A stretch of 64,000 nt of DNA from Brachynemurus nebulosus (taxonomy: Eukaryota > Arthropoda > Insecta > Neuroptera > Myrmeleontidae): NCBI GenBank assembly GCA_035578155.1, contig JAPWDM010000005.1, positions 14,040,832-14,104,831 on the forward strand, read 5' to 3'. Within the stretch, counting starts at the first letter, position 1; every line of letters begins with the position of its first letter. The notes below the pieces were generated by a model that did not search any database, was not told the origin of the DNA, and saw nothing but the letters and a program-made list of their open reading frames with translations. This document shows, in pieces, positions 16,801 through 46,181 of the stretch. The position numbers and the translations under genes are program-made.

Positions 16801-17017
16801 TTTTTGAAGAAAAAAATTTTTTGTTATAAATGGAAAGATCAAACTCTTTTTATTATTTTTTTAAAAAGATAAGAAGTTAAATTAAAAAGAAATTTTTAAA
16901 CTTACAACCGATAACGAGCCGATAATTTCCGAGCGCTTATGTGACGTAATAAAGATTATATTGCCTGAACATAGCTATATTAGTGTTTTTTTTATTTTCA
17001 AATAGATTATAGACCAA
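13859..17017. other. No recognisable gene; retroposon 3'-end fragment
   Basis: At 14355-14415 GACAGACAGACGGACAGGAC followed by AAGGGTTCCGTAATTT and GGGACCCTTAAAA resembles the 3' end of insect RTE-type non-LTR elements. The rest is AT-rich; no coding signal seen. Confidence 0.45.
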
Positions 17018-17223
17018 GAGCTACTGGCCGATTTGCGATAGTCATTTCAACACGCATTAAATTGAGAAGATAGAATCTTGGATACTTACTCTACATAAAA
17101 ATTCAACCCGGCCGAATAGGCTTGCCAGAACTGAATTTTTGTGTAGAGTAAGTAGTATCCAAGATCCTATCCTCTCAATTTAACGCGTGTTGAAATGACC
17201 ATCGCAAATCGGCCAGCAGCTCT
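17018..17223. repeat. Palindromic MITE, 206 bp
   Basis: GAGCTACTGGCCGATTTGCG at the left and inverted GAGCTGCTGGCCGATTTGCG at the right, with arms of roughly 95 bp that pair across a short centre with GGCCGAATAGGC. No TSD identified. Confidence 0.7.
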
Positions 17224-17605: not shown

Positions 17606-18773
17606 GGGTAAAAGCCCCGATTGTGGAACACTATTTTTAGGTATTTCATCAAACTTGCTTACAAAAATTAATAAATGAATTAAACACCCTTTTTTTTTCT
17701 TAATAAGCATGAAACCAAGTTTTTTTAATCCAATGAATATGTTTTTAAGAAAATATAACCCAAAAATTTTGATTTATTAATGTTTTGTTTTATAATTTGT
17801 TGACATCTATAAAAAAACAGACAGAATATATTAACACCCTTTAAAAAATCAGCACATTGACACCTAAAAAAGAACACGTATGTACAACATGAGATACATT
17901 ACATACCATTCACATACATATTTTGCCATCTTTTCACTCTATGACATAGAGTGACATCTAGTAGTAAATAGAATGTCAAATTAAAAAATATAGAATGTTT
18001 TAAATATTCGATAAAATAAACGACCAAAATCACAGAATATACCAAAATACCACAGAAAAATACTATATTTTGTTTCGCCATCTATGTATTTTGGTAAAGT
18101 TCTAATCAATTCTAAACCTTCTAAACTAACTTATCAAAATGGCGACAATTTTTCATTATTAATAAAATTTTGCAACTTTAAATCGATATTTTTTTATTTA
18201 TCAATTGACGATACGCTCCGAAATAAAAAAAATATTAAAAATTTTACGATTTTAAAGCAGTAAGTAAATATTTTAGACTCAAAAAGAAATTAAAACTATT
18301 TATAACATAAATTTTTAGTTATTTTACGTACATGATTTTAGTTAAATACAGAGGTTATATTGTGTACTGAAAGAAATACACATATATATAAATTACATTT
18401 AAACCGAATAAAAAGATGATTTAGCTCTTATAATCTCTTAACTGGACTAATAAAAATTATTTGTATAGTTTTATTGCGCTAACTTCGAAAATTAACTGGA
18501 AAATGTTGAAATTTATAAGGCATGTGTTTCGATAAATAAGCATTGATCAAACGCAAAAGAGACACATTCAGCAAAAATTGTTTAATATATATATGTATTT
18601 CTTTAATTAAGTAAAGAAACATTAAATGTGAGATGAATTTAAATTGAAAAACAATCATTCTATTAATAATAATTTTTGTTATCAGACGTTTCTTTCAGAA
18701 ATAACTTCATTAAGATATAAATGTCAAAACTGTTTTTCTATTGGATCGCGTTCCACAAACGGGGCTTTTACCC
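17606..18773. mobile_element. TA-flanked element, 1,168 bp (Tc1/mariner-type, non-autonomous)
   Basis: Ends GGGTAAAAGCCCCGATTGTG and inverted GGGTAAAAGCCCCGTTTGTG, both flanked by TA. The right-hand 150 bp match the short element at 61103-61332. The inside holds only a short spurious ORF. Confidence 0.7.
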
Positions 18774-18775
18774 TA

Positions 18776-20330
18776 TATCATTTTTTAAAAATTTTTCGTA
18801 TCGATTATCAATATTATTTATGATGTAGATTTGAAATAAAACAAAAAAAATGATATTTATTTTTTATTAAAAAACCCAATTGTTTAAATACAATTTTTTA
18901 ATTTTATATACAGTTCTTGTAGCCTGGAATCATTTCCACCGTTAGTTGGATTAACATTAGATAGTGTAATATGAAATGTCGTTTTCCGACCATTTGATCG
19001 ACCATATGTCCATGAAGTTAGCTCCGTCATTTTCTTTTTTCCAAACATAAAAGTGGTGTTGTATTGCGTCAGACGTGTGCTATCAAGTGCCGTAAATAAA
19101 AAGTTAAATCATAAAAATTTATAACCAAAAACTATTTTTGGGCTTTAAATTAGTCCCGCCGTTTTCCTTTTTTAAAACAAAAGAGGATGTACAGTTATGC
19201 TATACTTATGCTATCATGGACCATTAACAAAAATACCCCTGTCATAGCATCCTGCATAACATAGCGAATTTACGTTTATAAAAATTAGTTTTTGTCGGTA
19301 ACCAGTTTATATAGAATAATGGTTTAAAAACCTTTTTTATGTGATTCTTTCTCTTCTTTCTAATGGTGTAAAAAAGTGTTGCAAGAATTTTTGAAAATTT
19401 TGGCAAAAAAACTAATTTTTTTCACGGAAAATGCCCAAAAAACCATGTTTTCAACATTGGACGTGTCTGACTAACGAACCTGTCCAACAGTTTGGAACTT
19501 CCGGTTTCTAAGGACGTCAAAACAAATTTCTGCCATAGTCCCCGGCTCAAGTCGCGTCATGACAGTGGCTGTAATAACTGAATTCCATTCTGGAAATTCG
19601 CTAAAACTAAATTCCAAAACATATGATTTGTATGGCCAAAACACTTTTCTGCCGTAAAGCTTGCTAGAAATTTTAAACTTATGGTTTATTCTGAAATCCA
19701 GTCTTTTTAATTTAATTTTATTTTATTTATTTTTTTTTTTTAATGTTTTTTAATATTTCGATTAGGTAATGAAATTTTTATACAAAAGTTTTTTAACTCA
19801 AGTGTACAGGCTGATTGTCAGTAAGTATATTTTTTTTGATAACATTAAAAGTGGACCGCCCAGTTTTTTTATTGTGTACTCAATTAATATCAATAATGTC
19901 TTAATGACTTTCTTTATTATTATTCTAAGGAATAATTAATATAATATTTTTGTATTATAGTTACAAAATATACGAATATTTTTAGGTACTGTAGAACTAT
20001 ATGTATGTGCTGATATGAATTTGATATAAATTTTTGTATAATGTATATTGCCATTCAAGTTAGCATACAGTATACTTTAATAAAAATTCATTTCATTATT
20101 AAGTTCAATTTTGAAATCAATTATTCATTAATATTTGCGCCCACAATGAAATGTTTTTTTGGCAAATTAGAAAACAATTTAGACATTGAGTAATTGTTGT
20201 GCATTTACGTTAGTATTTTACAATGATTAGTTGTTGAAAATTAGTTCAACAACTTGTTTTTATGTTTAGTCTAATCTTTGTTAAAATATATAAATATGTA
20301 ATATTTTTAGAAAATAAAAAAATTGTCAGC
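18776..20330. other. No recognisable gene; dispersed repeat copy 1
   Basis: Holds copy 1 (about 19245-19615) of the family with CTCAAGTCGCGTCATGAC; other copies lie near 49300-49675, 56418-56775 (inverted) and 61572-62040. The remainder up to the TSD at 20331 is AT-rich. Confidence 0.5.
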
Positions 20331-20336
20331 TTAGTG
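20331..20336. repeat. Target site duplication TTAGTG (left)
   Basis: The hexamer TTAGTG directly abuts the left terminus AGTAGATAGG and is repeated right after the right terminus at 30371-30376. A 6-bp duplication is the Polinton/Maverick signature. Confidence 0.85.
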
Positions 20337-20755
20337 AGTAGATAGGCTAGGAGAGAGCTACCCCACAGTAGAACCCCAATTTTCCGGACTACTTTTTTGA
20401 CGATGTTAAGAACCGTGTAGTTTGGGGTCCTACTGTACCTAGAGTATGAATTGATCTCTGACCCGGCACGTACCAGGTACATGTATTTAAAATTTGTTGT
20501 TGACATTTGACCCCACACGCGCTCATACTGTAAGCCTTGAAATTCATAAGAGATGAGTCATTACCCGCAACCAAATTAATTTATGTTAACCCATTATGCG
20601 TCATCACAATTTACTTATAACAATTTGGTTTTGTGTTAACCCATTATGCGCCGGCACTAATGTAGTTTTTGAATGCAAACCTAACGCATGCGCAGATTGA
20701 ATGTAAGTACACGACGCATGCGCAGACTGAATTTTAGGTTACAATTTGATAGATG

Positions 20756-21250
20756 GGGTACACTATCGCGTCTAAAATGTGGGGAATACCCTAACTCGGG
20801 GGGTGGCCCCAAACTTTTGACGCCGTACTGTACTTAAATTTTTGGTACACTGCCGTGTCAAAAGTGCGGGCCCCCCTGACCAAAAAGGTATCCGATCACT
20901 TTTTTAAGCGTACTGTACGTGCAAACCTTGGCCCCAACACGCGCTTGCCTTAATTACGTCATCTTAAACGAACTATCACGTCAAAAAATGTGGGGAATAC
21001 CCTAACTCGGGGGTGGCCCCAAATTTTTGACGCCGTACTGTACTTAAATTTTTGGTACACTGCCGTGTCAAAAGTGCGGGCCCCCCTAACTAAAAAGGGT
21101 ATCCGACCACTTTTTGAAGCGTACTGTACGTGCAAACCTTGACCCCAACACGCGCTTGCCTTAATTGCGTCATTTTAAACGAAAGGTACATTACCAAGTC
21201 AAAAATGTGGGGAATACCCTAACCCACGGGGAGGCCGCTAAATTTTGTGG
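20756..21250. repeat. Subterminal tandem repeat, about 2.2 units of 211-217 bp (left arm)
   Basis: A block beginning AATGTGGGGAATACCC occurs at 20776, 20987 and 21204, giving periods of 211 and 217 bp. Each full unit contains runs of G or C, TACTGTAC-type palindromes and a CRE-like TACGTCAT or TGCGTCAT stretch. It is clearly GC-richer than the surrounding DNA. Just outside it (20580-20730) are duplicated short motifs TAACCCATTATGCG and CGCATGCGCAGA. Iterated subterminal repeats often bind replication or transposition proteins; that role here is inferred. Confidence 0.8.
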
Positions 21251-22411
21251 GGGCACTGTACCAAGCGCTACCGCAAAACTAACTTCAGACTCCAGGGTCC
21301 AGATGTCTGACCGCTACTGTACTGCCGGAAATTTGGGTGTCAACTGTAACTCAGGGTTTTTTTTTGTATATTTAACCTTGGAAAATTCCAGGAATTTTTA
21401 TCATTTTTAACATAAACAAACAACTAATAATTAAATGTTTGTTTTAGCTGAATTATGATCGTAAGACTCATATAAGGAGTTTTTTTGGTATAAGAAAGAT
21501 GACGTCATGGAATATTAATGAGTTAAAAAATTGTTTAGTAAAAAATATCACCCATTGTAGGCCTCAAGCAAGAAATTATTTTTATCAGTTTTAATACTTT
21601 AACATTTAACCTACAGTGACCAATTTTTTAGTTAACTAACAGAAGTTCTTGAAATTTTAAGAAGTTACAAAAAATATTACTTCTTATGGTGCACAACATT
21701 TTTGAATTTGACTGTAGCACAAAACTGTTTTTGTATATCAAACGAAAATTATCTGAAATAATTCAGTATGTACATATGTATAGACTCTGTATATTAAAAA
21801 TATTTTATGTATACACTCTGTATATTGAGAATAAGAAAGAAAATTTGTATATAATTTTAATTTTTATGAATACTAGTAAACGAATTGTATAGCCATTTAT
21901 GAATAAGTATTAAATCTAATTATAAAATAATTTATAAATATTGCAAAAAATTTGTTTAATCAGCAAAATCAATGTATATCATTTTAATACTGATACATAT
22001 TTATATTAGGGTATAATAGTATTGTATTTAACATTTTTAAACAGAATAAAAGTTCAATTTTTGGTTTTAAAATTACTATAAGTTAAACACGTCGCTTAAT
22101 ATAAAAATGATAACAGCATTGAGTTTTACTAAATTTTTAAGTCTGTAAAATCAAAATTTTTTATAGACTAGAACATTTTGAATTTGATACTCTATCATTA
22201 ACATACAAATAATATCATGTATATATAACGGGTGTATATTTAGTATTTTTAATAAATATTTTAGTATACAGGGTGTATCATGAAATATGCTTTTCAATTA
22301 GAATAATAAATTTCATAAGATTTTTGTTAATACTCTTATAGGTTAACGAAAGAAACTTTTTGCTGTAAAAAATAGGGGAATGCAGGGTAATAATTAAATA
22401 AAACGCACATA

Positions 22412-22438
22412 TTTTTTTTTTTTTTTTTAAATTTTATT
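22412..22438 (-). terminator. Polyadenylation signal plus encoded A17 tract, left-arm copy
   Basis: On the minus strand AATAAA (22433-22438) is followed after a few bases by an uninterrupted run of 17 A (22412-22428). It lies about 50-75 bp past the stop codon of the 161-aa CDS and probably ends its transcript. Confidence 0.55.
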
Positions 22439-22489
22439 TATAGAATATGTATACAAAAAATTAAATTGCTTAAATCTATATATTAAAAT

Positions 22490-22975
22490 CTATTTATTTT
22501 CCATATAAAAATTTTTTAAAAGAATACAATTTTCTAATGAACAAATTTTATCTGAATGAAGCATACAGCGTCTTGAATAATATTCATCTCGCAGAATGGA
22601 AATCTTCGGTACATCAAATATTTCTTCCAAATTCAAAATCCACGGCTGGTTTTCGGTACCATCAAACAAACTTGATATCCATTTCTTCTTTTCACCACCC
22701 TTGACGTATATAACATCATACTTCTTTAATATAGGTTTCAATATGGTATGAAGTTTTTTGTATGGAATAAATCCATACGACCAAGGTATCCCATGCCAAT
22801 TTCGGTAAAGCCAACTGGCTACTCGTTGATATTTCTTCGGCAACTCGTTGAAATCAAACGGTGCGTCGAATATAAGATGTAATATATCATCCGAATTTTC
22901 TGCAGCAATACCAACTTCTTTAAAATAAAATTCGTTGTTAGCTCCTTGATAGCCTTGTATGTCAAGAAACGCCAT
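22490..22975 (-). CDS. 161-aa MAFLDIQG protein, left-arm copy
   Basis: Same protein, residue for residue, as the right-arm copy at 27734-28219, which carries the full description. The start is ATG in the context AAAAATGG, 47 bp downstream of a TATATAAA box (23022-23029, minus strand). The stop is followed by AATAAA and an A17 tract on the coding strand (T17 at 22412-22428). Preservation of an open 161-codon frame in both arms fits either a recent duplication, gene conversion, or selection; the sequence alone cannot separate these. Confidence 0.75.
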   Translation of the reverse strand: MAFLDIQGYQGANNEFYFKEVGIAAENSDDILHLIFDAPFDFNELPKKYQRVASWLYRNWHGIPWSYGFIPYKKLHTILKPILKKYDVIYVKGGEKKKWISSLFDGTENQPWILNLEEIFDVPKISILRDEYYSRRCMLHSDKICSLENCILLKNFYMENK

Positions 22976-23021
22976 TTTTTACCGCCACCGTAGAACTGAA
23001 TTTATTCACACAATCCACAAC

Positions 23022-23029
23022 TTTATATA
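23022..23029 (-). promoter_or_regulatory. TATA box of the 161-aa gene, left arm
   Basis: TATATAAA on the minus strand, with the ATG starting 47 bp past the box. Placement is identical to the right-arm copy at 27680-27687. Confidence 0.6.
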
Positions 23030-23138
23030 GAATAATTAAAAGTGGTGGGGGTAGTTAGTTAATTTGTGGAACGTATTCGAAAATGGCTATTAATAGCTAT
23101 TGCTAGTTTACCATCAAATTACAAACTGTTAATAATAT

Positions 23139-23315
23139 TTAGCACATTTGTGAGTACCAGGTTCTTTTCACTTTAAGACCTAGTGATTTAAGGAATGCTA
23201 AATTTTCAGGTGAAATGTGTTGTTGCTCAAAAGTTTTACGTTTAATGATCTTAGGTTTCGAAAGTCCTTTGCTAGGTTCTCTAGCGGTGGGCTGCGCTGA
23301 ATTGTAAATTAACAT
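23139..23315 (-). CDS. 58-aa basic protein, left-arm copy
   Basis: Identical to the right-arm copy at 27394-27570; see that entry. The first ATG is at 23315. An upstream in-frame GTG at 23342 would add nine residues but is unlikely as a eukaryotic start. The gene runs in the same direction as the 161-aa gene, with 163 bp between its stop and the next ATG. Confidence 0.6.
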   Translation of the reverse strand: MLIYNSAQPTAREPSKGLSKPKIIKRKTFEQQHISPENLAFLKSLGLKVKRTWYSQMC

Positions 23316-23424
23316 GGTTCCAAAATGTAATTGTTTTACCACGAAAGTATAATTTTCAACGAAAGAGATGTTAACTCTTTGACAACCACCGGTAAATAGA
23401 TAATATTTTATGTAAGTTCAACTA

Positions 23425-23431
23425 TTTTATA
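23425..23431 (-). promoter_or_regulatory. TATA box of the 58-aa gene, left arm
   Basis: TATAAAA on the minus strand in the context GGGTATAAAATAG, about 110 bp before the ATG. A second TATATAA lies further upstream near 23482-23488. Mirrors 27278-27284. Confidence 0.55.
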
Positions 23432-23435
23432 CCCT

Positions 23436-23729
23436 TCAACCATGATAAGGTGTATAAGCTGGAGTATAACTCAGCAAATTATATAGCGGTGGTGACGTAA
23501 CACACAAATGCGGTGGTTGTGTTGCGGTTGTGGCGGTGGCGGTGTTTGTGTGACGGTTGTGTGGTGGTGGCGGTGGTGTTTGTGTGGCGGTGGCGGTGGT
23601 GTTTGTGTGGTGGCGGCGGTGGTGTTTGTGTGGCGGTGGTATTTGTATGGTGGTTTCGGTGGTTGTGTGGTGGTTGTGGGGGGTCGGGGTAGCAGCGGTG
23701 TTTGCGGCTGACGTGCACAACTTTATCAT
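23436..23729 (-). CDS. 97-aa His/Pro/Thr-rich low-complexity ORF, left-arm copy
   Basis: Mirror of 26980-27273. The frame is made of CCACC- and ACAACC-type repeats that also stay open in a second frame, so openness is weak evidence of coding. Kept as a low-confidence ORF because it has an ATG, is intact in both arms, and ends just before the TATA box of the 58-aa gene. Confidence 0.25.
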   Translation of the reverse strand: MIKLCTSAANTAATPTPHNHHTTTETTIQIPPPHKHHRRHHTNTTATATQTPPPPPHNRHTNTATATTATQPPHLCVTSPPLYNLLSYTPAYTPYHG

Positions 23730-23910
23730 TAATTCAATCGAAGCAGCAATTTACTGTAGACAATAAATCGGTGGTGACATCTCGCGGTGTTTGTTGAACG
23801 CAATATCTAAATTAATCAATCTGGTGACGTTCCTGTTCCCTGCTCTTATACTGGAAGATTATTAGATATCGATTTTAGATAAAATATTGGAAAATTTCGG
23901 TTACAAAAAC

Positions 23911-23918
23911 TATAAATA
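23911..23918 (+). promoter_or_regulatory. TATA box of first Cys-rich gene
   Basis: TATAAATA followed by CAACTGAATTATTAACCGG. The same block recurs before the second copy at 24381. A tiny upstream ORF (ATG 23938, five codons, stop 23953-23955) lies between the box and the main ATG at 23984. Confidence 0.6.
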
Positions 23919-23983
23919 CAACTGAATTATTAACCGGATGTCATTTGTTGGTTAAGTTCCAGAAGGTAAACAACAACAGCAAC

Positions 23984-24172
23984 ATGCCGATTTGTGGTAT
24001 TTGCAAATTTCAACCGTCACAGTGTAAGTGTGCCTTCTACGAGTACTGTGATAGGTGTCAAAATGAAAAACGAATTTGCATGTGTTGTAAACGATGTATG
24101 ATGCCATTTCCAAACTGTGTTTGCAATTATATAAACTGTACCACATGTAAAAGCCGCTGCAATTGCAAATAA
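23984..24172 (+). CDS. 62-aa cysteine-rich protein, copy 1 (four CxxC-x6-CxC repeats)
   Basis: Seen: 62 residues with 16 cysteines, at 4, 7, 14, 16, 22, 25, 32, 34, 35, 38, 45, 47, 52, 55, 59 and 61. They form a regular four-fold pattern: three units of C-x2-C-x6-C-x-C and a last unit C-x2-C-x3-C-x-C. There is no signal peptide, and basic residues are scattered (K8, R24, R30, K36, R37), so a cytosolic or nuclear zinc-binding protein is more likely than a secreted disulphide protein. I chose the ATG at 23984; the open frame extends upstream to 23945 but lacks an ATG. Neighbours: first gene of the unique core, in tandem with a diverged copy 467 bp downstream. Inferred: a small metal-binding regulator or metallothionein-like protein. 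I recognise no named family. Confidence 0.7.
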   Translation: MPICGICKFQPSQCKCAFYEYCDRCQNEKRICMCCKRCMMPFPNCVCNYINCTTCKSRCNCK

Positions 24173-24210
24173 TTTAGAAAAATCAATCATCTGATTGCCA
24201 CATAATACAT

Positions 24211-24325
24211 ATTGACCAATTCCACGGTTGCTCAAACCAACGTAAACATTTATTTATAACGCAATGACCAGCGATGTAATGAGGCATAATGGATATTTTG
24301 TGTAACAGTGGAATTGGTCAATATC
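24211..24325. repeat. Hairpin downstream of Cys-rich copy 1
   Basis: TATTGACCAATTCCAC at the left is answered by GTGGAATTGGTCAATA at the right, with about 85 bp between. A diverged version follows copy 2 (24677-24772). Position after each Cys-rich gene suggests a 3'-end or spacer structure that was duplicated with the gene. Confidence 0.6.
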
Positions 24326-24380
24326 GATTAAATATCGATTTTTTATAAAATATTGCATTATTTGGTTTCAGTCAAAATAC

Positions 24381-24388
24381 TATAAATA
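24381..24388 (+). promoter_or_regulatory. TATA box of second Cys-rich gene
   Basis: TATAAATA in the same context as 23911-23918. The five-codon upstream ORF is also kept (ATG 24408, stop 24423-24425). Confidence 0.6.
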
Positions 24389-24450
24389 CAACTGAATTAT
24401 TAACCGGATGTCATTTGTTGGTTAAGTTCCAGAAAGTAAACAAAAACAAC

Positions 24451-24639
24451 ATGCCGATTTGTGGTATTTGTAAATTTCAACCACCACAGTGTAAGTGTTC
24501 CTTCCCCGAGTATTGTGATAGGTGTCGAAACGAAAAACGAATTTGCATGTGTTGTAAACGATGTATGATGCCATTTCCAAACTGTGTTTGCAATTATGTA
24601 AACTGTCCCACATGTAAAAGCCGCTGCAATTGCGAATAA
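24451..24639 (+). CDS. 62-aa cysteine-rich protein, copy 2
   Basis: Tandem paralogue of the gene at 23984. By my alignment the two CDSs differ at about 12 nucleotides giving seven amino-acid changes (residues 12, 17, 19, 26, 50, 53 and 62). All 16 cysteines and the stretch from residue 27 to 49 are unchanged. Retention of every cysteine despite more replacement than silent changes argues that the metal-binding scaffold is constrained while the surface varies. Promoter, micro-uORF and downstream hairpin are duplicated with the gene. Starts at the ATG at 24451; the frame extends upstream without an ATG. Function unknown. Confidence 0.7.
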   Translation: MPICGICKFQPPQCKCSFPEYCDRCRNEKRICMCCKRCMMPFPNCVCNYVNCPTCKSRCNCE

Positions 24640-24704
24640 TTTAGTAAAATCAATTACCTGATTGCCACATCATAAGTATTGACCAATTCCACGGTTGTTA
24701 AAAC

Positions 24705-24860
24705 AAACATTAGCATTTATTTAGTAATGAGGTATAACGTATATTTTGAGTAACAGTGGAATTCACCAATACCTATTAATCAGTGTTAAAGTTTTTGTTG
24801 AATGCTCAAAATATACATTATACCTCATTACTAAATAAATGTTAATGTTTATTTGATATT
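24705..24860. repeat. Inverted repeat between Cys-rich copy 2 and the 120-aa gene
   Basis: A stretch reading CATTTATTTAGTAATGAGGTATAA is matched in inverted form by TTATACCTCATTACTAAATAAATG about 75-100 bp downstream, giving a long stem with a small central loop. It separates the Cys-rich pair from the next transcription unit. Confidence 0.6.
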
Positions 24861-24958
24861 TTCCATTGGTTGTGGTGTATAAACACTGATCATATGAAGG
24901 TGTGGTTGCTTTAGAGTAACTTAATTTGTAGCTGTGTGGGAATAAACATATCAGTGGG

Positions 24959-24975
24959 GTAAAATGAGCAACTCA
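24959..24975 (+). promoter_or_regulatory. Shared 17-bp upstream motif GTAAAATGAGCAACTCA, copy 1
   Basis: Identical to 25868-25884 upstream of the next gene. It contains the palindrome TGAG-CAA-CTCA. It lies just upstream of a GGT-triplet tract (about 24994-25046) and then a TATA-like box, the same order as before the zinc-finger gene. Probable binding site for a dimeric regulator; the factor is unknown. Confidence 0.6.
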
Positions 24976-24993
24976 AATTTTGTAGTTGTGTTG

Positions 24994-25046
24994 GGGTGGT
25001 GGTGGTGGTGGTGGTGGTGGCGGCGGTGGTGGTGGTGGTGGTGGTT
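24994..25046 (+). repeat. GGT/GGC triplet tract in promoter of the 120-aa gene
   Basis: Near-perfect GGTGGT triplets with some GGC, on the sense strand, between the 17-bp motif and the TATA-like box. May exclude nucleosomes or form G-quadruplex; that is inference. Confidence 0.8.
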
Positions 25047-25069
25047 TTTGTGGGTGGCAACTCATAATT

Positions 25070-25076
25070 TATTTAA
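25070..25076 (+). promoter_or_regulatory. TATA-like box of the 120-aa gene
   Basis: TATTTAA about 40 bp before the ATG at 25116, right after the GGT tract. Weaker match than the other TATA boxes of the element. Confidence 0.45.
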
Positions 25077-25115
25077 GCGACGTGCTGTAACAGAAATTGG
25101 CAGTGTATTGGCAAA

Positions 25116-25478
25116 ATGTCTGAACAACACGGTGTTGAGTTAAGTATAAGTGATCTGTGGACCACTTTTACTGCCACTGATACAACAATGGATCCGGTTT
25201 TGGAGAAGTTGAATAAACTTGGTGCTGGTAAACCATTCAAATCGCTATCTACACTCAAACCATATGAAACGTGGAAAATTCTTGATGTACGACGCATGGA
25301 AACTCGATATGGGCCAGCGGTTGCGGTGGAACTTGCAGATGCTCAAGTGTTCCTTCCAAAACGATTCGCGGATTTGGATGAGCAGACCATTCAATGTTTA
25401 CGTACAGGACAATATTTTATTACATATAAAGGAACTGATTCTAGTGGTTTTTTACATATTGTGGAATTTAGTAAATAG
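25116..25478 (+). CDS. 120-aa compact protein, candidate OB-fold ssDNA-binding protein
   Basis: Seen: 120 residues, ATG in context AAAATG. After an acidic, variable N-terminus (1-45) there is a dense beta-rich region: PYETWKILDVRRMETRYG (49-66), then alternating small and hydrophobic residues, and VFLPKRF (78-84), followed by YFITYKG and HIVEF at the end. From memory, small proteins with the pattern of a Y-x-V or W-x-I strand, R-x-x-T-R/K-Y/F-G, and LPKR are common around insect viral-like integrants; I infer an OB-fold-type nucleic-acid-binding domain, but I cannot name the family with certainty. Neighbours: own promoter motif plus GGT tract; AATAAA at 25585-25590. Role inferred: coating ssDNA during replication of the element. 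A structure prediction would decide. Confidence 0.75.
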   Translation: MSEQHGVELSISDLWTTFTATDTTMDPVLEKLNKLGAGKPFKSLSTLKPYETWKILDVRRMETRYGPAVAVELADAQVFLPKRFADLDEQTIQCLRTGQYFITYKGTDSSGFLHIVEFSK

Positions 25479-25584
25479 CTATCACATATATGATGTTAGA
25501 TGTAAGATTAAGGTAACTGTCAGATATGAAAATGAATTGATTTACTTTTTAATTTTAATATTGTAAACGTATATTTCATTAAAA

Positions 25585-25590
25585 AATAAA
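25585..25590 (+). terminator. Polyadenylation signal of the 120-aa gene
   Basis: AATAAA in the context AAAAAATAAATTATTT, 107 bp after the stop codon. Two further AT-rich stretches follow. No other gene lies before 25868. Confidence 0.45.
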
Positions 25591-25867
25591 TTATTTTACG
25601 TATAAATTCTTATATTGTTCTTATTTTACAACACACTAGAACCTCCCAAATTATATCTTGAATTATGATAAGACTCTCAGTAGGTATGGACCCAGTTGGC
25701 AACGCAATGTAATTGCCTATATTCAGGAGCAAGTATTTTAATGTTAGTGTTGAGTCACCTGACACTTGCATATAGCTCTTCATTCATTTTTCTGAACTAA
25801 TTTCCAAACCGAAAGAGCGTAATGGGGGCAAAATGTGTAAGCCGGATGTCAACAGCTACTTCATGGA

Positions 25868-25884
25868 GTAAAATGAGCAACTCA
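25868..25884 (+). promoter_or_regulatory. Shared 17-bp upstream motif GTAAAATGAGCAACTCA, copy 2
   Basis: Exact repeat of 24959-24975, again directly upstream of a GGT tract and a TATA box, here for the zinc-finger gene. Two exact 17-mers in the same promoter position are unlikely by chance. Confidence 0.65.
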
Positions 25885-25885
25885 G

Positions 25886-25958
25886 ATGTGGTGGTTGCGG
25901 CGGCGGCGGTGGTGGTGGTGGTGGTGGCGGTGGTGGTGGTGGTGGTGGTGGTGGTGGA
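25886..25958 (+). repeat. GGT/GGC triplet tract in promoter of the zinc-finger gene
   Basis: Long run of GGT with interspersed GGC triplets, ending one base before the TATATAAG box. Longer than the tract before the 120-aa gene. Confidence 0.8.
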
Positions 25959-25959
25959 G

Positions 25960-25967
25960 TATATAAG
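25960..25967 (+). promoter_or_regulatory. TATA box of the zinc-finger gene
   Basis: TATATAAG, 64 bp before the ATG at 26031, immediately after the GGT tract. Confidence 0.6.
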
Positions 25968-26030
25968 TAATCGCTAACACAATTCTGAATTAATCTTGTA
26001 AGACTAGTTGAGCTTTACACATCTATTATA

Positions 26031-26897
26031 ATGTTCGAGTGTACGCGGTGCTATAAAAGCTTCTCGCGGAAAGATTCTCTTTCACGTCATATAAGAAATA
26101 CACATATGCGGGAATTTTCACCAAAAAGGTTTGAAAATGGTTACTCTCTTGATCCGCTAAAAAGACAAACATTAGACACGGCTGATGACTTATCTAGTTA
26201 TGATACCGGGAGGAATGATGTTAATGATGACTTTCTAAACAACAAAGTTGAAGAAAGGGTCAATCCACTTGAACAAAGAATTAAAGCTGCATCAAAAGCA
26301 ATTCAAACTAAATTTAATAATTTAAGAAATCAAAATAATGTTTACACACCCAGCGATGAGTCTAATAACAGGGTTTTAACCACTTCTGATAGTGGAACTG
26401 TTATCATTCCCAAGTTAACTACAGCTTTGCAAACCCTTTTGGATATTTTATTAATCAAAGAAACTCAAAATAAAGGTGAGGATTCTAATGAACGAATAGC
26501 AATAAAACGTCCAGTCAATTCAACGGACCAAGAGCTACTTGCTAAGCGTATCAAATACAACGACTCGGAAAATGCTAATGGGCAATCGAAAAAAATAAAA
26601 TACTGGCATAATCCTAATACTTTAATAGATGAATTACGACGTTTATACGAGACTTCAGAGACTGGTGAAAAAATACTCAATATTATTCGGAGTTTAGAGG
26701 AAAATAAAAACATATTGTTTAACGTTGACGATAGTGAAGCTTTAATCGAAGAGTTAGATGCTTTAAGAGAAACTACTGTCGGTCAAGAAATATTCTCTAT
26801 ACTTCGTGAACTTCAAAAGGCTGATGTTATTGAGCCACTAGGTGATTATCTGGATGAAACTGATAAAGAAGATGCTAGCGATTATGATGATGATTAA
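26031..26897 (+). CDS. 288-aa single-C2H2 zinc-finger protein with two helical repeats
   Basis: Seen: residues 4-25 form one classic C2H2 finger, C4-x2-C7-x12-H20-x4-H25, with the usual F11 and L17. Residues 30-130 are polar and probably disordered. A lysine/arginine cluster KRIKYNDSE (172-180) and KKIKYWH (187-193) may act as nuclear localisation signals. Residues 197-229 and 237-267 are an internal repeat of the form (T/A)LI(D/E)EL-x2-L-x-ET-x2-G-x2-I-x2-I-x-R-x-L, predicted helical. The C-terminus is very acidic (ETDKEDASDYDDD). Starts at the ATG at 26031, 64 bp after TATATAAG. Inferred: DNA-binding or transcription/replication regulator of the element. The stop codon lies inside the right arm, and the left arm holds an orphan copy of the last bases. 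No named family recognised beyond the C2H2 fold. Confidence 0.8.
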   Translation: MFECTRCYKSFSRKDSLSRHIRNTHMREFSPKRFENGYSLDPLKRQTLDTADDLSSYDTGRNDVNDDFLNNKVEERVNPLEQRIKAASKAIQTKFNNLRNQNNVYTPSDESNNRVLTTSDSGTVIIPKLTTALQTLLDILLIKETQNKGEDSNERIAIKRPVNSTDQELLAKRIKYNDSENANGQSKKIKYWHNPNTLIDELRRLYETSETGEKILNIIRSLEENKNILFNVDDSEALIEELDALRETTVGQEIFSILRELQKADVIEPLGDYLDETDKEDASDYDDD

Positions 26898-26979
26898 TTT
26901 AGATATTGCGTTCAACAAACACCGCGAGATGTCACCACCGATTTATTGTCTACAGTAAATTGCTGCTTCGATTGAATTA

Positions 26980-27273
26980 ATGATAAAGTTGTGCACGTCA
27001 GCCGCAAACACCGCTGCTACCCCGACCCCCCACAACCACCACACAACCACCGAAACCACCATACAAATACCACCGCCACACAAACACCACCGCCGCCACC
27101 ACACAAACACCACCGCCACCGCCACACAAACACCACCGCCACCACCACACAACCGTCACACAAACACCGCCACCGCCACAACCGCAACACAACCACCGCA
27201 TTTGTGTGTTACGTCACCACCGCTATATAATTTGCTGAGTTATACTCCAGCTTATACACCTTATCATGGTTGA
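26980..27273 (+). CDS. 97-aa His/Pro/Thr-rich low-complexity ORF, right-arm copy
   Basis: ATG at 26980; 97 residues rich in H, P and T, ending with a tyrosine/proline-rich tail (YTPAYTPYHG). The DNA is an imperfect CCACC/ACAACC repeat, and a second frame is also open across it, so the ORF could be an accident of the repeat. It sits between the zinc-finger gene and the 58-aa gene, and its stop lies only a few bases before that gene's TATA box. It resembles the GGT tracts upstream of the two core genes but in opposite orientation. Could equally be a regulatory repeat. Confidence 0.25.
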   Translation: MIKLCTSAANTAATPTPHNHHTTTETTIQIPPPHKHHRRHHTNTTATATQTPPPPPHNRHTNTATATTATQPPHLCVTSPPLYNLLSYTPAYTPYHG

Positions 27274-27277
27274 AGGG

Positions 27278-27284
27278 TATAAAA
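27278..27284 (+). promoter_or_regulatory. TATA box of the 58-aa gene, right arm
   Basis: TATAAAA in GGGTATAAAATAG, 110 bp before the ATG at 27394. A TATATAA lies about 55 bp further upstream (near 27221). Confidence 0.55.
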
Positions 27285-27393
27285 TAGTTGAACTTACATA
27301 AAATATTATCTATTTACCGGTGGTTGTCAAAGAGTTAACATCTCTTTCGTTGAAAATTATACTTTCGTGGTAAAACAATTACATTTTGGAACC

Positions 27394-27570
27394 ATGTTAA
27401 TTTACAATTCAGCGCAGCCCACCGCTAGAGAACCTAGCAAAGGACTTTCGAAACCTAAGATCATTAAACGTAAAACTTTTGAGCAACAACACATTTCACC
27501 TGAAAATTTAGCATTCCTTAAATCACTAGGTCTTAAAGTGAAAAGAACCTGGTACTCACAAATGTGCTAA
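27394..27570 (+). CDS. 58-aa basic protein with a LxFLKSLGLKVKR C-terminal motif
   Basis: Seen: 58 residues, lysine/arginine-rich middle (KPKIIKRKTFEQ), then HISPENLAFLKSLGLKVKR, which reads as helix-turn with a conserved-looking S-L-G-L/F-K. The frame also runs upstream without ATG, so the first ATG at 27394 is taken as the start. Short proteins with a similar L-x-x-E-N-x-x-F-L-x-S-L-G ending occur, to my recollection, beside other virus-like ORFs in insect genomes; no function is established. Its own TATA box and intact duplication in both arms support expression. Could be a DNA-binding or core-like basic peptide (inference). Confidence 0.6.
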   Translation: MLIYNSAQPTAREPSKGLSKPKIIKRKTFEQQHISPENLAFLKSLGLKVKRTWYSQMC

Positions 27571-27679
27571 ATATTATTAACAGTTTGTAATTTGATGGTA
27601 AACTAGCAATAGCTATTAATAGCCATTTTCGAATACGTTCCACAAATTAACTAACTACCCCCACCACTTTTAATTATTC

Positions 27680-27687
27680 TATATAAA
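27680..27687 (+). promoter_or_regulatory. TATA box of the 161-aa gene, right arm
   Basis: TATATAAA in TTCTATATAAAGTTG; the ATG at 27734 begins 47 bp past the end of the box. Confidence 0.6.
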
Positions 27688-27733
27688 GTTGTGGATTGTG
27701 TGAATAAATTCAGTTCTACGGTGGCGGTAAAAA

Positions 27734-28219
27734 ATGGCGTTTCTTGACATACAAGGCTATCAAGGAGCTAACAACGAATTTTATTTTAAAGAAGTTGGTA
27801 TTGCTGCAGAAAATTCGGATGATATATTACATCTTATATTCGACGCACCGTTTGATTTCAACGAGTTGCCGAAGAAATATCAACGAGTAGCCAGTTGGCT
27901 TTACCGAAATTGGCATGGGATACCTTGGTCGTATGGATTTATTCCATACAAAAAACTTCATACCATATTGAAACCTATATTAAAGAAGTATGATGTTATA
28001 TACGTCAAGGGTGGTGAAAAGAAGAAATGGATATCAAGTTTGTTTGATGGTACCGAAAACCAGCCGTGGATTTTGAATTTGGAAGAAATATTTGATGTAC
28101 CGAAGATTTCCATTCTGCGAGATGAATATTATTCAAGACGCTGTATGCTTCATTCAGATAAAATTTGTTCATTAGAAAATTGTATTCTTTTAAAAAATTT
28201 TTATATGGAAAATAAATAG
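27734..28219 (+). CDS. 161-aa MAFLDIQG protein, candidate RNase H-fold (exonuclease-like) protein
   Basis: Seen: 161 residues beginning with a hydrophobic strand and acidic residue, AFLDIQGY (2-9), where an RNase H/DEDDh nuclease would have its first D-x-E; here it is D5-I-Q7. Then IYVKGGEKKKWI (89-100), an NLEEI-x-DVPK segment (115-124), and a C-terminal Cys/His-rich end, C137-x2-H140-x4-C145-x4-C150. From memory, proteins starting with (V/L)DIQG(F/Y) and containing VKG-x-EK-x2-W/F-(I/L) are widespread as hypothetical proteins around virus-like elements in arthropods. I infer an RNase H-like fold, possibly without catalysis because the second acidic residue is Q. No signal peptide or membrane segment. 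Last gene of the rightward set; AATAAA and an A17 run follow the stop. Confidence 0.75.
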   Translation: MAFLDIQGYQGANNEFYFKEVGIAAENSDDILHLIFDAPFDFNELPKKYQRVASWLYRNWHGIPWSYGFIPYKKLHTILKPILKKYDVIYVKGGEKKKWISSLFDGTENQPWILNLEEIFDVPKISILRDEYYSRRCMLHSDKICSLENCILLKNFYMENK

Positions 28220-28270
28220 ATTTTAATATATAGATTTAAGCAATTTAATTTTTTGTATACATATTCTATA

Positions 28271-28297
28271 AATAAAATTTAAAAAAAAAAAAAAAAA
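28271..28297 (+). terminator. Polyadenylation signal plus encoded A17 tract, right-arm copy
   Basis: AATAAA (28271-28276) followed by a run of 17 A (28281-28297), 51 bp past the stop of the 161-aa CDS. An encoded A run so close to a polyadenylation signal is what a retroposed mRNA end would leave; a simple A-tract is the alternative. Confidence 0.55.
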
Positions 28298-29456
28298 TAT
28301 GTGCGTTTTATTTAATTATTACCCTGCATTCCCCTATTTTTTACAGCAAAAAGTTTCTTTCGTTAACCTATAAGAGTATTAACAAAAATCTTATGAAATT
28401 TATTATTCTAATTGAAAAGCATATTTCATGATACACCCTGTATACTAAAATATTTATTAAAAATACTAAATATACACCCGTTATATATACATGATATTAT
28501 TTGTATGTTAATGATAGAGTATCAAATTCAAAATGTTCTAGTCTATAAAAAATTTTGATTTTACAGACTTAAAAATTTAGTAAAACTCAATGCTGTTATC
28601 ATTTTTATATTAAGCGACGTGTTTAACTTATAGTAATTTAAAACCAAAAATTGAACTTTTATTCTGTTTAAAAATGTTAAATACAATACTATTATACCCT
28701 AATATAAATATGTATCAGTATTAAAATGATATACATTGATTTTGCTGATTAAACAAATTTTTTGCAATATTTATAAATTATTTTATAATTAGATTTAATA
28801 CTTATTCATAAATGGCTATACAATTCGTTTACTAGTATTCATAAAAATTAAAATTATATACAAATTTTCTTTCTTATTCTCAATATACAGAGTGTATACA
28901 TAAAATATTTTTAATATACAGAGTCTATACATATGTACATACTGAATTATTTCAGATAATTTTCGTTTGATATACAAAAACAGTTTTGTGCTACAGTCAA
29001 ATTCAAAAATGTTGTGCACCATAAGAAGTAATATTTTTTGTAACTTCTTAAAATTTCAAGAACTTCTGTTAGTTAACTAAAAAATTGGTCACTGTAGGTT
29101 AAATGTTAAAGTATTAAAACTGATAAAAATAATTTCTTGCTTGAGGCCTACAATGGGTGATATTTTTTACTAAACAATTTTTTAACTCATTAATATTCCA
29201 TGACGTCATCTTTCTTATACCAAAAAAACTCCTTATATGAGTCTTACGATCATAATTCAGCTAAAACAAACATTTAATTATTAGTTGTTTGTTTATGTTA
29301 AAAATGATAAAAATTCCTGGAATTTTCCAAGGTTAAATATACAAAAAAAACCCTGAGTTACAGTTGACACCCAAATTTCCGGCAGTACAGTAGCGGTCAG
29401 ACATCTGGACCCTGGAGTCTGAAGTTAGTTTTGCGGTAGCGCTTGGTACAGTGCCC
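28298..29456. other. Non-coding AT-rich part of right arm (mirror: 21251-22411)
   Basis: About 1.15 kb between the 161-aa gene and the subterminal repeats. I see no convincing gene. It contains short direct repeats such as ATATACAGAGT (28884 and 28914) and a stretch with TGACGTCATC (near 29201). The ORFs here are short and AT-driven. The same holds for the mirrored stretch of the left arm. Confidence 0.6.
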
Positions 29457-29951
29457 CCACAAAATTTAGCGGCCTCCCCGTGGGTTAGGGTATTCCCCAC
29501 ATTTTTGACTTGGTAATGTACCTTTCGTTTAAAATGACGCAATTAAGGCAAGCGCGTGTTGGGGTCAAGGTTTGCACGTACAGTACGCTTCAAAAAGTGG
29601 TCGGATACCCTTTTTAGTTAGGGGGGCCCGCACTTTTGACACGGCAGTGTACCAAAAATTTAAGTACAGTACGGCGTCAAAAATTTGGGGCCACCCCCGA
29701 GTTAGGGTATTCCCCACATTTTTTGACGTGATAGTTCGTTTAAGATGACGTAATTAAGGCAAGCGCGTGTTGGGGCCAAGGTTTGCACGTACAGTACGCT
29801 TAAAAAAGTGATCGGATACCTTTTTGGTCAGGGGGGCCCGCACTTTTGACACGGCAGTGTACCAAAAATTTAAGTACAGTACGGCGTCAAAAGTTTGGGG
29901 CCACCCCCCGAGTTAGGGTATTCCCCACATTTTAGACGCGATAGTGTACCC
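29457..29951. repeat. Subterminal tandem repeat (right arm)
   Basis: Inverted mirror copy of the 211-217-bp tandem repeat of the left arm, with the same GC-rich runs and TACTGTAC-type palindromes. It lies 420-910 bp from the right terminus. Outside it are the paired CGCATGCGCAGA and TAACCCATTATGCG motifs. Confidence 0.8.
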
Positions 29952-30370
29952 CATCTATCAAATTGTAACCTAAAATTCAGTCTGCGCATGCGTCGTGTAC
30001 TTACATTCAATCTGCGCATGCGTTAGGTTTGCATTCAAAAACTACATTAGTGCCGGCGCATAATGGGTTAACACAAAACCAAATTGTTATAAGTAAATTG
30101 TGATGACGCATAATGGGTTAACATAAATTAATTTGGTTGCGGGTAATGACTCATCTCTTATGAATTTCAAGGCTAACAGTATGAGCGCGTGTGGGGTCAA
30201 ATGTCAACAACAAATTTTAAATACATGTACCTGGTACGTGCCGGGTCAGAGATCAATTCATACTCTAGGTACAGTAGGACCCCAAACTACACGGTTCTTA
30301 ACATCGTCAAAAAAGTAGTCCGGAAAATTGGGGTTCTACTGTGGGGTAGCTCTCTCCTAGCCTATCTACT

Positions 30371-30376
30371 TTAGTG
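30371..30376. repeat. Target site duplication TTAGTG (right)
   Basis: Identical hexamer to 20331-20336, directly after the terminal CCTATCTACT. The flanking host sequence resumes immediately (an A-rich AAAAAAATTG stretch on the right, AAAAAAATTG on the left), consistent with an ordinary integration. Confidence 0.85.
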
Positions 30377-33300
30377 AACAAAAAAATTGTAATTTATAAT
30401 ATCCTAACGACCCCAATCCAAATTCGCACGAGTTTTTAGTCTTTAATTTTTTCAATCTTATTATATGAGTTGCCTAGTATCAAAATCTACTAATTCCACT
30501 TTATAAAGATCGTGGGAAATCGCAAAAAACCATAACTTTTCGATTAAAAAGTCATAATTATATTAACTAACAAGGTAAAAAAGATGATTAGTACTATTAT
30601 CAAAAAACAAAATTATCGTTTTACCCCTTTTTTAATCAAAATTATTTGAATTTAGTAGGTTTTGATAGTAGCATTTACATAAAGTGCGTTTTAAAACAGA
30701 AATTATAAGGGAAATTTATTAAAGAAAACTTGATTCAGCAATATTGGATGTATCAGGGTTAAACGATACAATTTGTTTTGTAATATTGTAAACTATTCTC
30801 ATTTTGTCACTTAAAAACAGAGTGCTTACTTAGTAATTCATTTAGATCTACGTTTTCATTATTTAAAATTTTAGATAAATACTAAAGTACAAATTTTACG
30901 TGAAAACATAATTTTATACTTCATACGTCCCGCATGTCAGTGAAAAAATTAAAATTTGAACGGTTAAAATCTAAAATATAGGTTATGTATAGGTATTTAG
31001 CAGTATTTGTAAAGTTTTCAATGTAATTTTAGCAGGATTTGAAAATTATGTTATACTTCAGTTGCAGATTTCTTTAGTAAGCAGTTAAAATTATAACAAA
31101 AATGTTAAGGGGCATGCCTTGTTGCATTTAAAAATTAATTGCCCTAAAAAATCAAAAAATTCGAAAAGTGCACTTAGTAGATTTTGATACTAGGCGACAC
31201 ATATTCTTATAATGTATATCCAGTCCAGGTATAATATTATTAAAAATAATCATTTTAGTCATTTAGTCGAAGGTAAAATAATCGACTTAAAAATAATTCT
31301 ATTTAAACAAAATGAATCGACTAAACTGATTAATCGATTAATCATCAAATATCACTACTATTGTCAAGTTGAAGCGCAGTTAGTCGAATTAGTCATTAGT
31401 CGAAAATACTGAGCAAACAATTGACGATTAATGAACTAAACTTTTAATTGAACTGATGAATATAGTAACCTGTATATCTTTCAAAAACGGTGTTTTCTTT
31501 CGAATTTAATTATATTAATTTGTAATAGTTTTTTTAAAGAAAAAGAAAAATATATCTTTATTACCTTATGCTAACGACATAAAAATGAAAAATCATACAG
31601 CAGTAACTTTTAGTTTTCATATTTTTTAATCTTATAAATGATATAGAAAAATTAAAGTAAAAAAATGTTTTTTAAGAAAAAGCTTTTATTTAAAAATGAG
31701 CTAAAAAAAAATAAAATAATTTTTGAGTGAAGTTTGAAACAATATGCAACAAAATTTATAAAAGCTTGAGGCGTTATCATTAGTTATTTCTGTTTTGGAT
31801 GTTTTAGATATACGTATAAGTGTAGCCATTTTACTTTTCAGTAGTTACCAGACTTAATTAAACGCCTCAAGCTTTTATAAATTATGTTCATATTGTTTCA
31901 AACTTCACTCAAAAATTATTTTATTTTTTTTTAGCCCATTTTTAAATAAAAGCTTTTTCTTAAAAAACATTTTTTTTTACTTTAATTTATTTTCTATTTT
32001 TTAGTCTGATCACAATTAATTTAAAAAAAAAAAGAATTAAAGAAGTAATTTTTTTACCTACATTTTAATCGGTTAATTTATCCTAATCAGACATAACTAT
32101 GGAAACAAAAAATTGCAATGTAAAATCAATGGACAATATTTGACAATCCGAAATGTCAAAAAGTTGCACAGGACTAAAAATCAACAATTTTGGTTTTGGG
32201 CGATTTAGGACAAAACTAATTATACAATATTGCATTGTCATCAAGGTTAGACACGTATGCAAAATTTGAAACCTCTAGCTCAATTAAAACCTGCCTAAAT
32301 TTTGATTCCAAGATATGATTTAAACCAACATACTAACATAGTAAGTTAAATAAAAGCTTTAAAAAAAAACTTAAATTAGCTGTCTTTTTTGTCATTTAAA
32401 AATTTATTAATCATTTTAGTCATTTAGTCGAGGATAAAATAGTCGACCATAAAAGGATCAAAAAACAATTACACAATTAGTCAACTAAACCGATGAATTG
32501 ATTGATCATTTAATATCACTACTATCCATTAATGAAGATCGAATTCAATAATTACTGGAAAAATCTATTACGGTCAGATAGACAGATGCTGTAGGCGACT
32601 ATATATAGATAAAAATTTGTAAATAAAGATTAAAAATGATCACGGTTTTTAAAAAATAGGCTTGCCTTAAATCAGTGTTAATCATTTTTAAACCGAGCAT
32701 AAAAGTGTAAGACCAATAACCTTATAAAATTTACCACCGTGCCCTCAATAGGTACACGCGTCTCTAATTTTTATGGCACCCGCTATCAGGAAAACAATCA
32801 TCAGGTGAGGTTTGACCCAACCTGGTCTATGACATATTAGTTAGTGACTATATGTAATGACTAACTGTGATAATACATCTTTATAGTACTGTAAACGTAA
32901 AGAATAAATCTACACAGGTTCTCTGCTTCAGTGCATCATAAAATGTTTATTTCATCGACTAATAACTGTTTGTCATATACTTATTAAAATTAGTTTTCTT
33001 CTTTTTTTTTAATATAATAAATGAATTATTGTACAAATTCTGATCGTATTTGTTAACGTCATAGACAGAGTATTCCATTTTTCTAAAAAAAAGAACATGT
33101 ATATCTATACAATAATATGAAGAACTCGGGATTTTTTCCAGAAACGGAAAATTCGAAAAATGTAAGACGGTTGACAAGTGTACATATAGTTTAGGTCATC
33201 TCACAGTATGGGTTTGAGGCAACGAAAACTGGTTTGTGATCAGTCACTATAGCTGATTGAAAAATCACCATCATGTGTGGTTTAGTTAGGAAACTATACA

Positions 33301-39911: not shown

Positions 39912-39970
39912 TAAATTTCATCATTCTATCATTTTGTTGGCCATTTTTACCCTCCGGTATCCGAACTTAA

Positions 39971-40679
39971 GGTACCATCACAGTGTGATTCTGTCGAAAA
40001 GTAGTCAATTTTCACAATTTTTTTTCGGGTGGATAGGATGGGGGAATGGGGATGAATTTTTTTACAATTAATACCACTATTTGACAATTCAAAAATATTT
40101 TTTTATTTATTTTTATTTATTTTTTTATAATTATTATAATTTTTTGAAAAAAGTGTCTTTAAAAAAGGCCGAAATTCGGTGCCCACGATTGCGGCCGCAG
40201 TTTTTATCCGAAAAAAAAATCAAATAGATTATCAATCTGTAGATAAGCGGCTATGTTCCTACGGGAGCTTTTTTTCTTTGAAATTTGAAAAAATGGCCGC
40301 GGTTTGAATAAAAAGTACAAATTTTTTTACAGTTTTCTGTGTGAAAAAATAGGAAGATTTCAAAAGAAAAAAAAAGATCTCCCATGGCAACATAGCGGCT
40401 TACCTACAGATTGATCAACTATTTGATTTTTTTTTTCGGATAAAAACTACGGCCGCAATCGTGGGCACCGAATTTCGGCCATTTTTAAAGACACTTTTTT
40501 CAAAAAATTATAATAATTATAAAAAATAAATCAAAATAAATAAAAAAAATATTTTTGTATTGTCAAATAGTGGTATTAATCGTAAAAAAAAAAATGATCC
40601 GCATTCCCCTATCCTATCCATCCGAAAAAAAATTGTGACAATTGACTACTTTTCGACAGAATTACACAGTGATGGTACC
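39971..40679. mobile_element. TTAA-flanked full-length hairpin element, 709 bp
   Basis: TTAA (39967-39970 and 40680-40683) flanks GGTACCATCACAGTGT and its inverted copy. Nearly the whole element is two arms of about 330 bp, including a GCGGCCGCAG motif, around a short centre near 40310-40340. Confidence 0.75.
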
Positions 40680-46099: not shown

Positions 46100-46181
46100 G
46101 AAATTAAAAATATAACTGCGTCTCGCATTGAAGAGAAGATGTGTTTGATTGATTGTCGGACTGGAGTGGTACTCGAACAGC

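Follow-up and report, generated by a model that had tools for sequence, protein, structure and literature searches.

What is the palindromic element of 10 kb that lies in a 64,000-nt stretch of the genome of the neuropteran Brachynemurus nebulosus (assembly GCA_035578155.1, contig JAPWDM010000005.1, positions 14,040,832 to 14,104,831 of the forward strand, here called the window), and how did such a structure arise and spread? The element occupies positions 20337-30370 (10,034 nt) and consists of two inverted arms around one core: the left arm at 20337-23818 (3,482 nt, forward strand, delimited by inverted-repeat alignment), the core at 23819-26890 (3,072 nt, forward strand) and the right arm at 26891-30370 (3,480 nt, reverse strand), which is an inverted copy of the left one. 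Aligned to each other, the arms show a single substitution (20532, A/T) and two gaps of 1 nt (21357 and 22069). The element runs from AGTAGATAGG...CCTATCTACT, begins with AGTAGA and is flanked by a perfect 6-bp target-site duplication (TSD), TTAGTG, present with the same letters at 20331-20336 and 30371-30376. The palindrome stops at the TSD, the flanks outside matching at 22 of 60 positions. An earlier note on this DNA had described gene-carrying arms of 3.48 kb, each amounting to 35% of the element, around a core of 3.07 kb; the measured values agree, with 34.7% of the length in one arm and open reading frames (ORFs) of 161 and 58 aa within the arms. We consider it likely that this is a non-autonomous, protein-coding fold-back Polinton, which was made once by copying of one of its ends, was amplified in trans and has exchanged ends with full-size relatives.

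Relatives were sought in the 960-Mb assembly that holds the window. The outer 964 nt of the arm matched at least 47 places (40 scored of 2,699 candidates), and the matches often formed oppositely oriented pairs with a spacing of 10.0-11.6 or 16.7-18.8 kb. Ten full-size elements of 16.7-18.8 kb were found, with terminal inverted repeats (TIRs) of ~0.99-1.06 kb. Their gene content was read gene by gene in C41, where Pfam searches of the sequence, read in pieces, detected a double-jelly-roll capsid (5.8e-20), a PLA2-like protein (1.4e-11), an A32-type ATPase (2.4e-8) and an rve integrase (2.7e-14); a chromodomain stayed under the cut-off. A PolB frame of more than 1,100 codons was present in two overlapping pieces. 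C41 is a Polinton with capsid, packaging ATPase, integrase and PolB, and its ends are those of the 16.7-kb elements and of the window element alike, in agreement with the assignment to Polintons/Mavericks that had been proposed on the basis of the 6-bp TSD and the AG/CT ends. A second full-size element, C53, was compared in one pair of pieces and contained the same long frames and the same PolB 48-mer. The PolB identity rests on homologues (7,975 scored, many of the 120 listed carrying PF03175), the best named relatives being those of bees, ants, wasps, sawflies, beetles and a fly, and in addition on motifs typical of PolB.

In nine of the ten full-size elements the gene for the 161-aa protein is located at one end and is absent from the other. 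The gene-bearing end of these nine matches the arm of the window element up to arm position ~2,722, just upstream of the TATA box of the 161-aa gene, and the opposite end matches it only over the ~1.0-kb TIR. The outer ~1.0 kb of the left arm corresponds to the TIR of the 16.7-kb relatives, and the stretch from 1.0 to 2.72 kb to the region found at one end of them. The element C69:367906-386672 is 18.8 kb in size, ~2 kb longer than the other full-size elements, and neither of its fetched ends contains the 161-aa gene.

A six-frame Pfam search of arm and core detected no polymerase, integrase, ATPase or capsid; this includes the rve integrase as well as the capsid and packaging ATPase seen in C41, and a P-type transposase domain was also absent from the six frames. 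For a protein-primed PolB, arm and core contained neither a frame, the longest one being 288 aa, nor a Pfam match, in a search that also missed the PolB of the smaller relative C94. The window element thus has Polinton-type ends, a 6-bp TSD and a terminal kilobase shared with C41-type elements and lacks recognisable replication, integration and capsid genes of its own, which makes a non-autonomous Polinton the likely reading.

A third kind of element, a PolB-only size class, is C94:1033804-1045671, an element of 11.6 kb with TIRs of 1.07 kb and a 6-bp TSD. From one end to the other it carries the 161-aa gene (100% identical), the 58-aa gene (83%), a zinc-finger gene read inward (a 340-aa C2H2 protein, 47% identical to the 288-aa protein of the window element), a 251-aa ORF and PolB; an 88-aa ORF is also present, and no capsid or integrase frame was found among the ORFs listed. 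As far as the zinc-finger gene, C94 and the left half of the window element are collinear.

The fold-back form makes up a family whose few hundred copies have their junctions in common. With up to three mismatches allowed, a 42-mer taken from the 120-aa gene of the core matched 397 times (201 forward and 196 reverse; the reversed control gave 0), and since at least one mirror form holds this marker twice, the number of copies is somewhat lower than 397. The whole core was present at 96-100% identity in 37 places among the best 40 of 1,814 candidates, and the best 135 of 2,924 candidate places for the 288-aa protein were 97-100% identical, 134 of them over the full length and one without the last residue. 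Both ends were read for fourteen core-bearing elements (the window element, C1:46, C95:41.79, C1:159 and ten more), thirteen of which have long gene-bearing arms; C65 showed no left-side match, and one arm of C45 carries a deletion. The copy at C1:46101168-46111221, for instance, has the same structure as the window element and a different TSD (CTGAGC). Perfect 6-bp TSDs, all different, flank twelve of the fourteen fold-back copies, all ten full-size elements and the single 11.6-kb element; the TSD was unread in C59, where the end lies beyond the fetched stretch, and in C65, where one arm is missing. A 6-bp TSD together with AGTAGA ends was thus found wherever both were readable, in 23 of 25 elements, window included. 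Copies with another TSD length or other termini, which the earlier note had named as a possible refutation, did not turn up, and its suggestion that short, fold-back derivatives with coding capacity form a class of their own is borne out by the number of copies and the arms they carry.

The junctions between arms and core are informative with respect to origin. The core/right-arm junction (26883-26898, forward strand) lies at the 3' end of the zinc-finger gene and contains a TGAT microhomology. The zinc-finger genes of C94 and the window element agree through ...GATTATGATGATGAT, beyond which C94 adds acidic codons and the window element goes to TAATTTAGATATTGCG, which is the inner arm end. At the left junction this arm end follows on ...CCAGATTGAT, so that 4 nt, TGAT, are common at the switch point. 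The left junction was exact in all 13 other copies and the right one in 10 of the 12 others tested; such common junctions point to one origin of the fold-back form. Beside it, several mirror forms were observed, and accordingly one side has been copied onto the other more than once. C58:199 is a giant hairpin, in which core positions 1-1950 are followed by 1226-1 in inverted orientation with the switch at a GGT/CCA tract; the arms of C58:112 reach 560 nt further into the core; and a zinc-finger gene lies on either side in C95:11.742 and C109:0.295, with switch points near GGT tracts. Further head-to-head pairs of zinc-finger genes, in C80 and C17, were seen in the match table only.

Within one copy the two arms are ~99.9% identical; the 11 copies counted have 15 substitutions across 40,135 aligned nt. 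This count leaves out C45, C58:112 and C65, takes C59 without its outermost end and C95:41.79 and C1:159 over the outer 3,601 nt only, and includes some core in the case of C58:199. Between elements, the inner arm (1000-2640) is 98-99.9% identical and the outer arm (60-780) 89-99%, with the exception of C1:855, whose inner arm is ~81% identical. In C1:855 both arms have the same non-matching stretch at ~1,000-2,000 (62-78% identical to that of the window element), replacing ~1 kb. The 161-aa gene of C1:855 is interrupted by a stop at codon 90 in both arms, and in C11:134 the same truncation of this gene occurs in both arms. These shared lesions are compatible with one arm having been copied onto its partner, and we infer that the identity of the arms results from copying at replication; they also suggest that the 161-aa gene is dispensable in cis.

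The ends of the family are mosaic. Compared with C45, the window element is 99.9% identical in the inner arm and 92.1% in the outer arm, and compared with the full-size element C98, it is 99.3% identical in the outer arm (60-780) and 99.2% in the inner one. The 12 fold-back copies whose ends were readable show seven different terminal 24-mers, and outer and inner identities over 120 pairs were weakly correlated (r = 0.32), a value dominated by the outlier C1:855. The simplest reading of these patterns would be recombination with full-size elements, by which both ends are replaced together.

The genes were evaluated by comparing ORF lengths with 300 simulated sequences and by substitution patterns between copies. 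The 161-aa ORF is present at 22490-22975 (reverse strand, from the ORF list and the arm alignment) and at 27734-28219 (forward strand), in both cases at arm positions 2154-2639, and an ORF of this length occurred in 0 of the 300 simulations. The right copy has a TATA box 52-54 nt 5' of the ATG, an initiator-like TCAGTT and a downstream AATAAA. The protein shows at most four amino acid changes in full-length copies across 23 elements, and the gene is nearly invariant at the DNA level across the fold-back, 11.6-kb and 16.7-kb classes; its variants in the 23 elements comprise 6 synonymous, 9 other and 2 stop changes (P = 0.09). A relation of this protein to DEDDh exonucleases, which we had considered, found no support in the sequence searches. 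The 58-aa ORF (23139-23315, reverse strand, and 27394-27570, forward strand) has homologues of 55% identity in C41 and C53 in addition to that in C94. The repetitive 97-aa frame (23436-23729, reverse strand, and 26980-27273, forward strand) is of a length reached in 98 of 300 simulations and is probably not a gene.

In the core, a 62-aa cysteine-rich ORF is present twice on the forward strand (23984-24172 and 24451-24639) as a tandem duplication with a spacing of 467 nt; 11 codons differ between the copies and every cysteine is kept. TTGACCAATTCCAC motifs occur in both orientations around this duplicated cassette, and the core contains a 50-bp hairpin (94%) at 24701-24854, after the second cysteine-rich gene. 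The 120-aa ORF (25116-25478, forward strand) was free of stops in all nine copies read, and its length, reached in 26 of 300 simulations, is not beyond chance. A fold search with its model placed OB folds that bind single-stranded DNA high in the ranking, with no hit reaching E<=0.001, so that an OB-fold protein of this kind may be regarded as a possible, weak lead. The 288-aa protein (26031-26897, forward strand; length reached in 0 of 300 simulations) has an N-terminal C2H2 finger (Pfam zf-C2H2, 2.6e-5), and its stop codon lies inside the right arm. A 17-nt module at 24959-24975 (forward strand), followed by a (GGT)n tract at 24995-25045, precedes the 120-aa gene, and an identical module at 25868-25884, followed by a (GGT)n tract at 25888-25957, precedes the 288-aa gene. 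TATA boxes were found 52-116 nt 5' of the ATG of both cysteine-rich ORFs and of the 288-, 58- and 161-aa ORFs, and none was found upstream of the 120-aa ORF and the 97-aa frame. Searches of the protein collection with the 161- and 120-aa proteins gave no match at E<=0.001, three proteins had no match among viral contigs, and PDB sequence searches returned nothing credible and, for the PolB piece, no match. Single-sequence AlphaFold models were poor, with pLDDT values of 40.7 and 49.0.

What these data add to the earlier note concerns the probable single origin of the form, its junction, the source of its arms, the exchange of ends and the loss of genes for replication, integration and capsid. 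We propose that the ancestor was a PolB-carrying relative of ~11 kb similar to C94. A template switch during replication or repair, at the 4-nt microhomology at the 3' end of the zinc-finger gene, would have led to copying of the element's own left end, by which the polymerase side was replaced by a second, inverted left end of 3.48 kb. The PolB/terminal protein and the integrase of relatives may then have acted in trans on the shared ends, as the ends and TSDs suggest. During replication the arms would be made alike, either by panhandle pairing or by copying of one end from the other, and with arms equalised in this way each new insertion would begin with identical arms. Recombination with full-size elements might swap the terminal kilobase and keep the ends matched to the helper. 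The element's own small genes may still help it.

Several observations weigh against this scheme. The right junction is absent in C65 and C11:134, and the arm pairs of C45 and C58:112 each contain six mismatches (in 2,955 and 3,846 nt, respectively). Just one 11.6-kb element was seen, and Pfam did not recognise PF03175 in its PolB piece, which was named through its homologues. The two cysteine-rich genes and the 120-aa gene are absent from C41, C53 and C94, and selection is not apparent in the 120-aa gene (ratio 1.05, with 2 synonymous and 10 other changes).

The same non-autonomous element might also be explained as an inert passenger, in which only the ends matter for amplification and the genes are functionless leftovers. 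We regard this as a serious contender, although somewhat short of probable. It is favoured by the 120-aa gene, which is without visible constraint, by the stop and the truncation in both arms of C1:855 and C11:134, which did not block spread, and by the zinc-finger copies, of which seven of nine read are intact, one is frameshifted and one matches only in part. Nevertheless, stops were present in only 5 of the 135 best-scoring zinc-finger places and absent from 130, in a ranking by score that favours intact copies; the changes in this gene lean towards synonymous (12 synonymous to 21 other, P = 0.03), the change ratios of the cysteine-rich genes are 0.11-0.24 in a small sample of four copies, and the predicted promoters are conserved. 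A far-reaching version, possible but in our view rather doubtful, would make the element a true Polinton satellite with a selected gene set of its own (the C2H2 protein, a possible single-stranded DNA-binding protein, the cysteine-rich proteins and the doubled 161-aa gene), depending on its relatives for replication and integration proteins and tracking them by swaps of the terminal kilobase. It would be the Polinton counterpart of a satellite virus or a defective-interfering genome, its symmetric arms would be an adaptation to protein-primed replication, and mirror forms would still be arising.

The remaining alternatives concern the arms. Lesions shared by both arms fit gene conversion in the chromosome after insertion equally well as copying at replication. 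In the TIRs of eight full-size elements, however, columns 1-970 contain only private differences, and fixed, shared ones follow just inside, at 975-985; young insertions account for this better than continuing conversion does (the sample contains no old copies), and we consider conversion unlikely. Head-to-head joining of two elements followed by deletion between them, with no template switch, would yield a product that looks alike, and many elements are present for it to act on; on the other hand, the microhomology at the junction lies in a short repeat and several mirror forms have other axes, for which a replication error in one molecule is the simpler explanation, and joining therefore appears improbable to us. 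Long palindromes are hard to assemble, and a false inverted duplication had been raised as a possible refutation by the earlier note. With arms that differ at three places and the same structure found with other TSDs and flanks, and with one junction, on many contigs, the chance of an assembly artefact is in our judgement negligible. Four further candidates were rejected: a unique oddity, given the 397 marker matches; an autonomous Polinton with unusual arms, as no PolB, integrase, ATPase or capsid was detected by Pfam in six frames; a P-type Foldback element, as there is no transposase domain in six frames and the TSD is 6 bp; and a gene-less element resembling miniature inverted-repeat transposable elements (MITEs), as the 161- and 288-aa ORFs are beyond chance and the zinc-finger frame is open at nearly all of its best places.

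Further repeats were noted in the element and around it. The outer arm contains 2.2 copies of a 211-bp tandem repeat (20762-21223), mirrored at 29524-29945. Elsewhere in the window, four smaller inverted-repeat structures (39967-40683, 45596-46275, 31659-31976 and 17017-17223), with arms of 70-183 nt that are 92-99% complementary, are probably other foldback or MITE-like host elements, and 18566-19396 and 61135-61730 are dispersed host repeats that are 84-89% alike.

To our knowledge, the replication and movement of Polintons have hardly ever been observed directly. Hundreds of nearly fresh, symmetric and protein-coding derivatives within a single genome, beside full-size and PolB-only relatives, represent a natural record of what the machinery needs, namely the ends, and of the errors it appears to make, in which one end is copied onto the other at a microhomology. 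A Polinton-like element has spread widely without genes for capsid, integrase and polymerase, and the question of parasites carried by virus-like transposons becomes testable. In symmetric defective genomes of adenoviruses and palindromic derivatives of yeast linear killer plasmids, both linear replicons with terminal proteins, one end has likewise been placed on the other as an inverted copy; these molecules are extrachromosomal or products of the laboratory, whereas the form described here is a chromosomal family. Foldback/Galileo elements of Drosophila have TSDs of a length other than 6 bp. In the available passages of PMC3573991 they include non-autonomous copies, as here, but belong to the P-element superfamily, in contrast to the Polinton ends and 6-bp TSDs of the present family.

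Polintons/Mavericks share with it the 6-bp TSD, the TIRs and 5'-AG ends that are (AGT)2-like, here AGTAGA (PMC8097293, in the parts available), and the larger relatives in this genome carry the expected capsid, ATPase, integrase and PolB. The window element differs from them in lacking these four genes and in carrying genes inside its repeats. The 134 intact vertebrate Mavericks described in those parts of PMC8097293 are 12.7-24.6 kb in size with TIRs of 46-1,447 bp, compared to 10.0 kb and arms of 3.48 kb here; the earlier note had stated that the TIRs of known Polintons are usually well below the size seen here. Long TIRs are not foreign to Polinton-like viruses, as a study of cryptophytes used a filter that accepted TIRs of up to 8 kb (PMC12220804, as far as its accessible text goes). 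A limited literature search yielded no account of a Polinton family that is both fold-back and protein-coding. Among endogenous mavirus-like elements (EMALEs), whose TIRs measure 0.2-2.3 kb according to the accessible text of PMC8547959, three truncated ones have TIRs that 'must have regenerated'; these are three single truncated cases in a protist, whereas in B. nebulosus a gene-bearing fold-back form is present at hundreds of copies.

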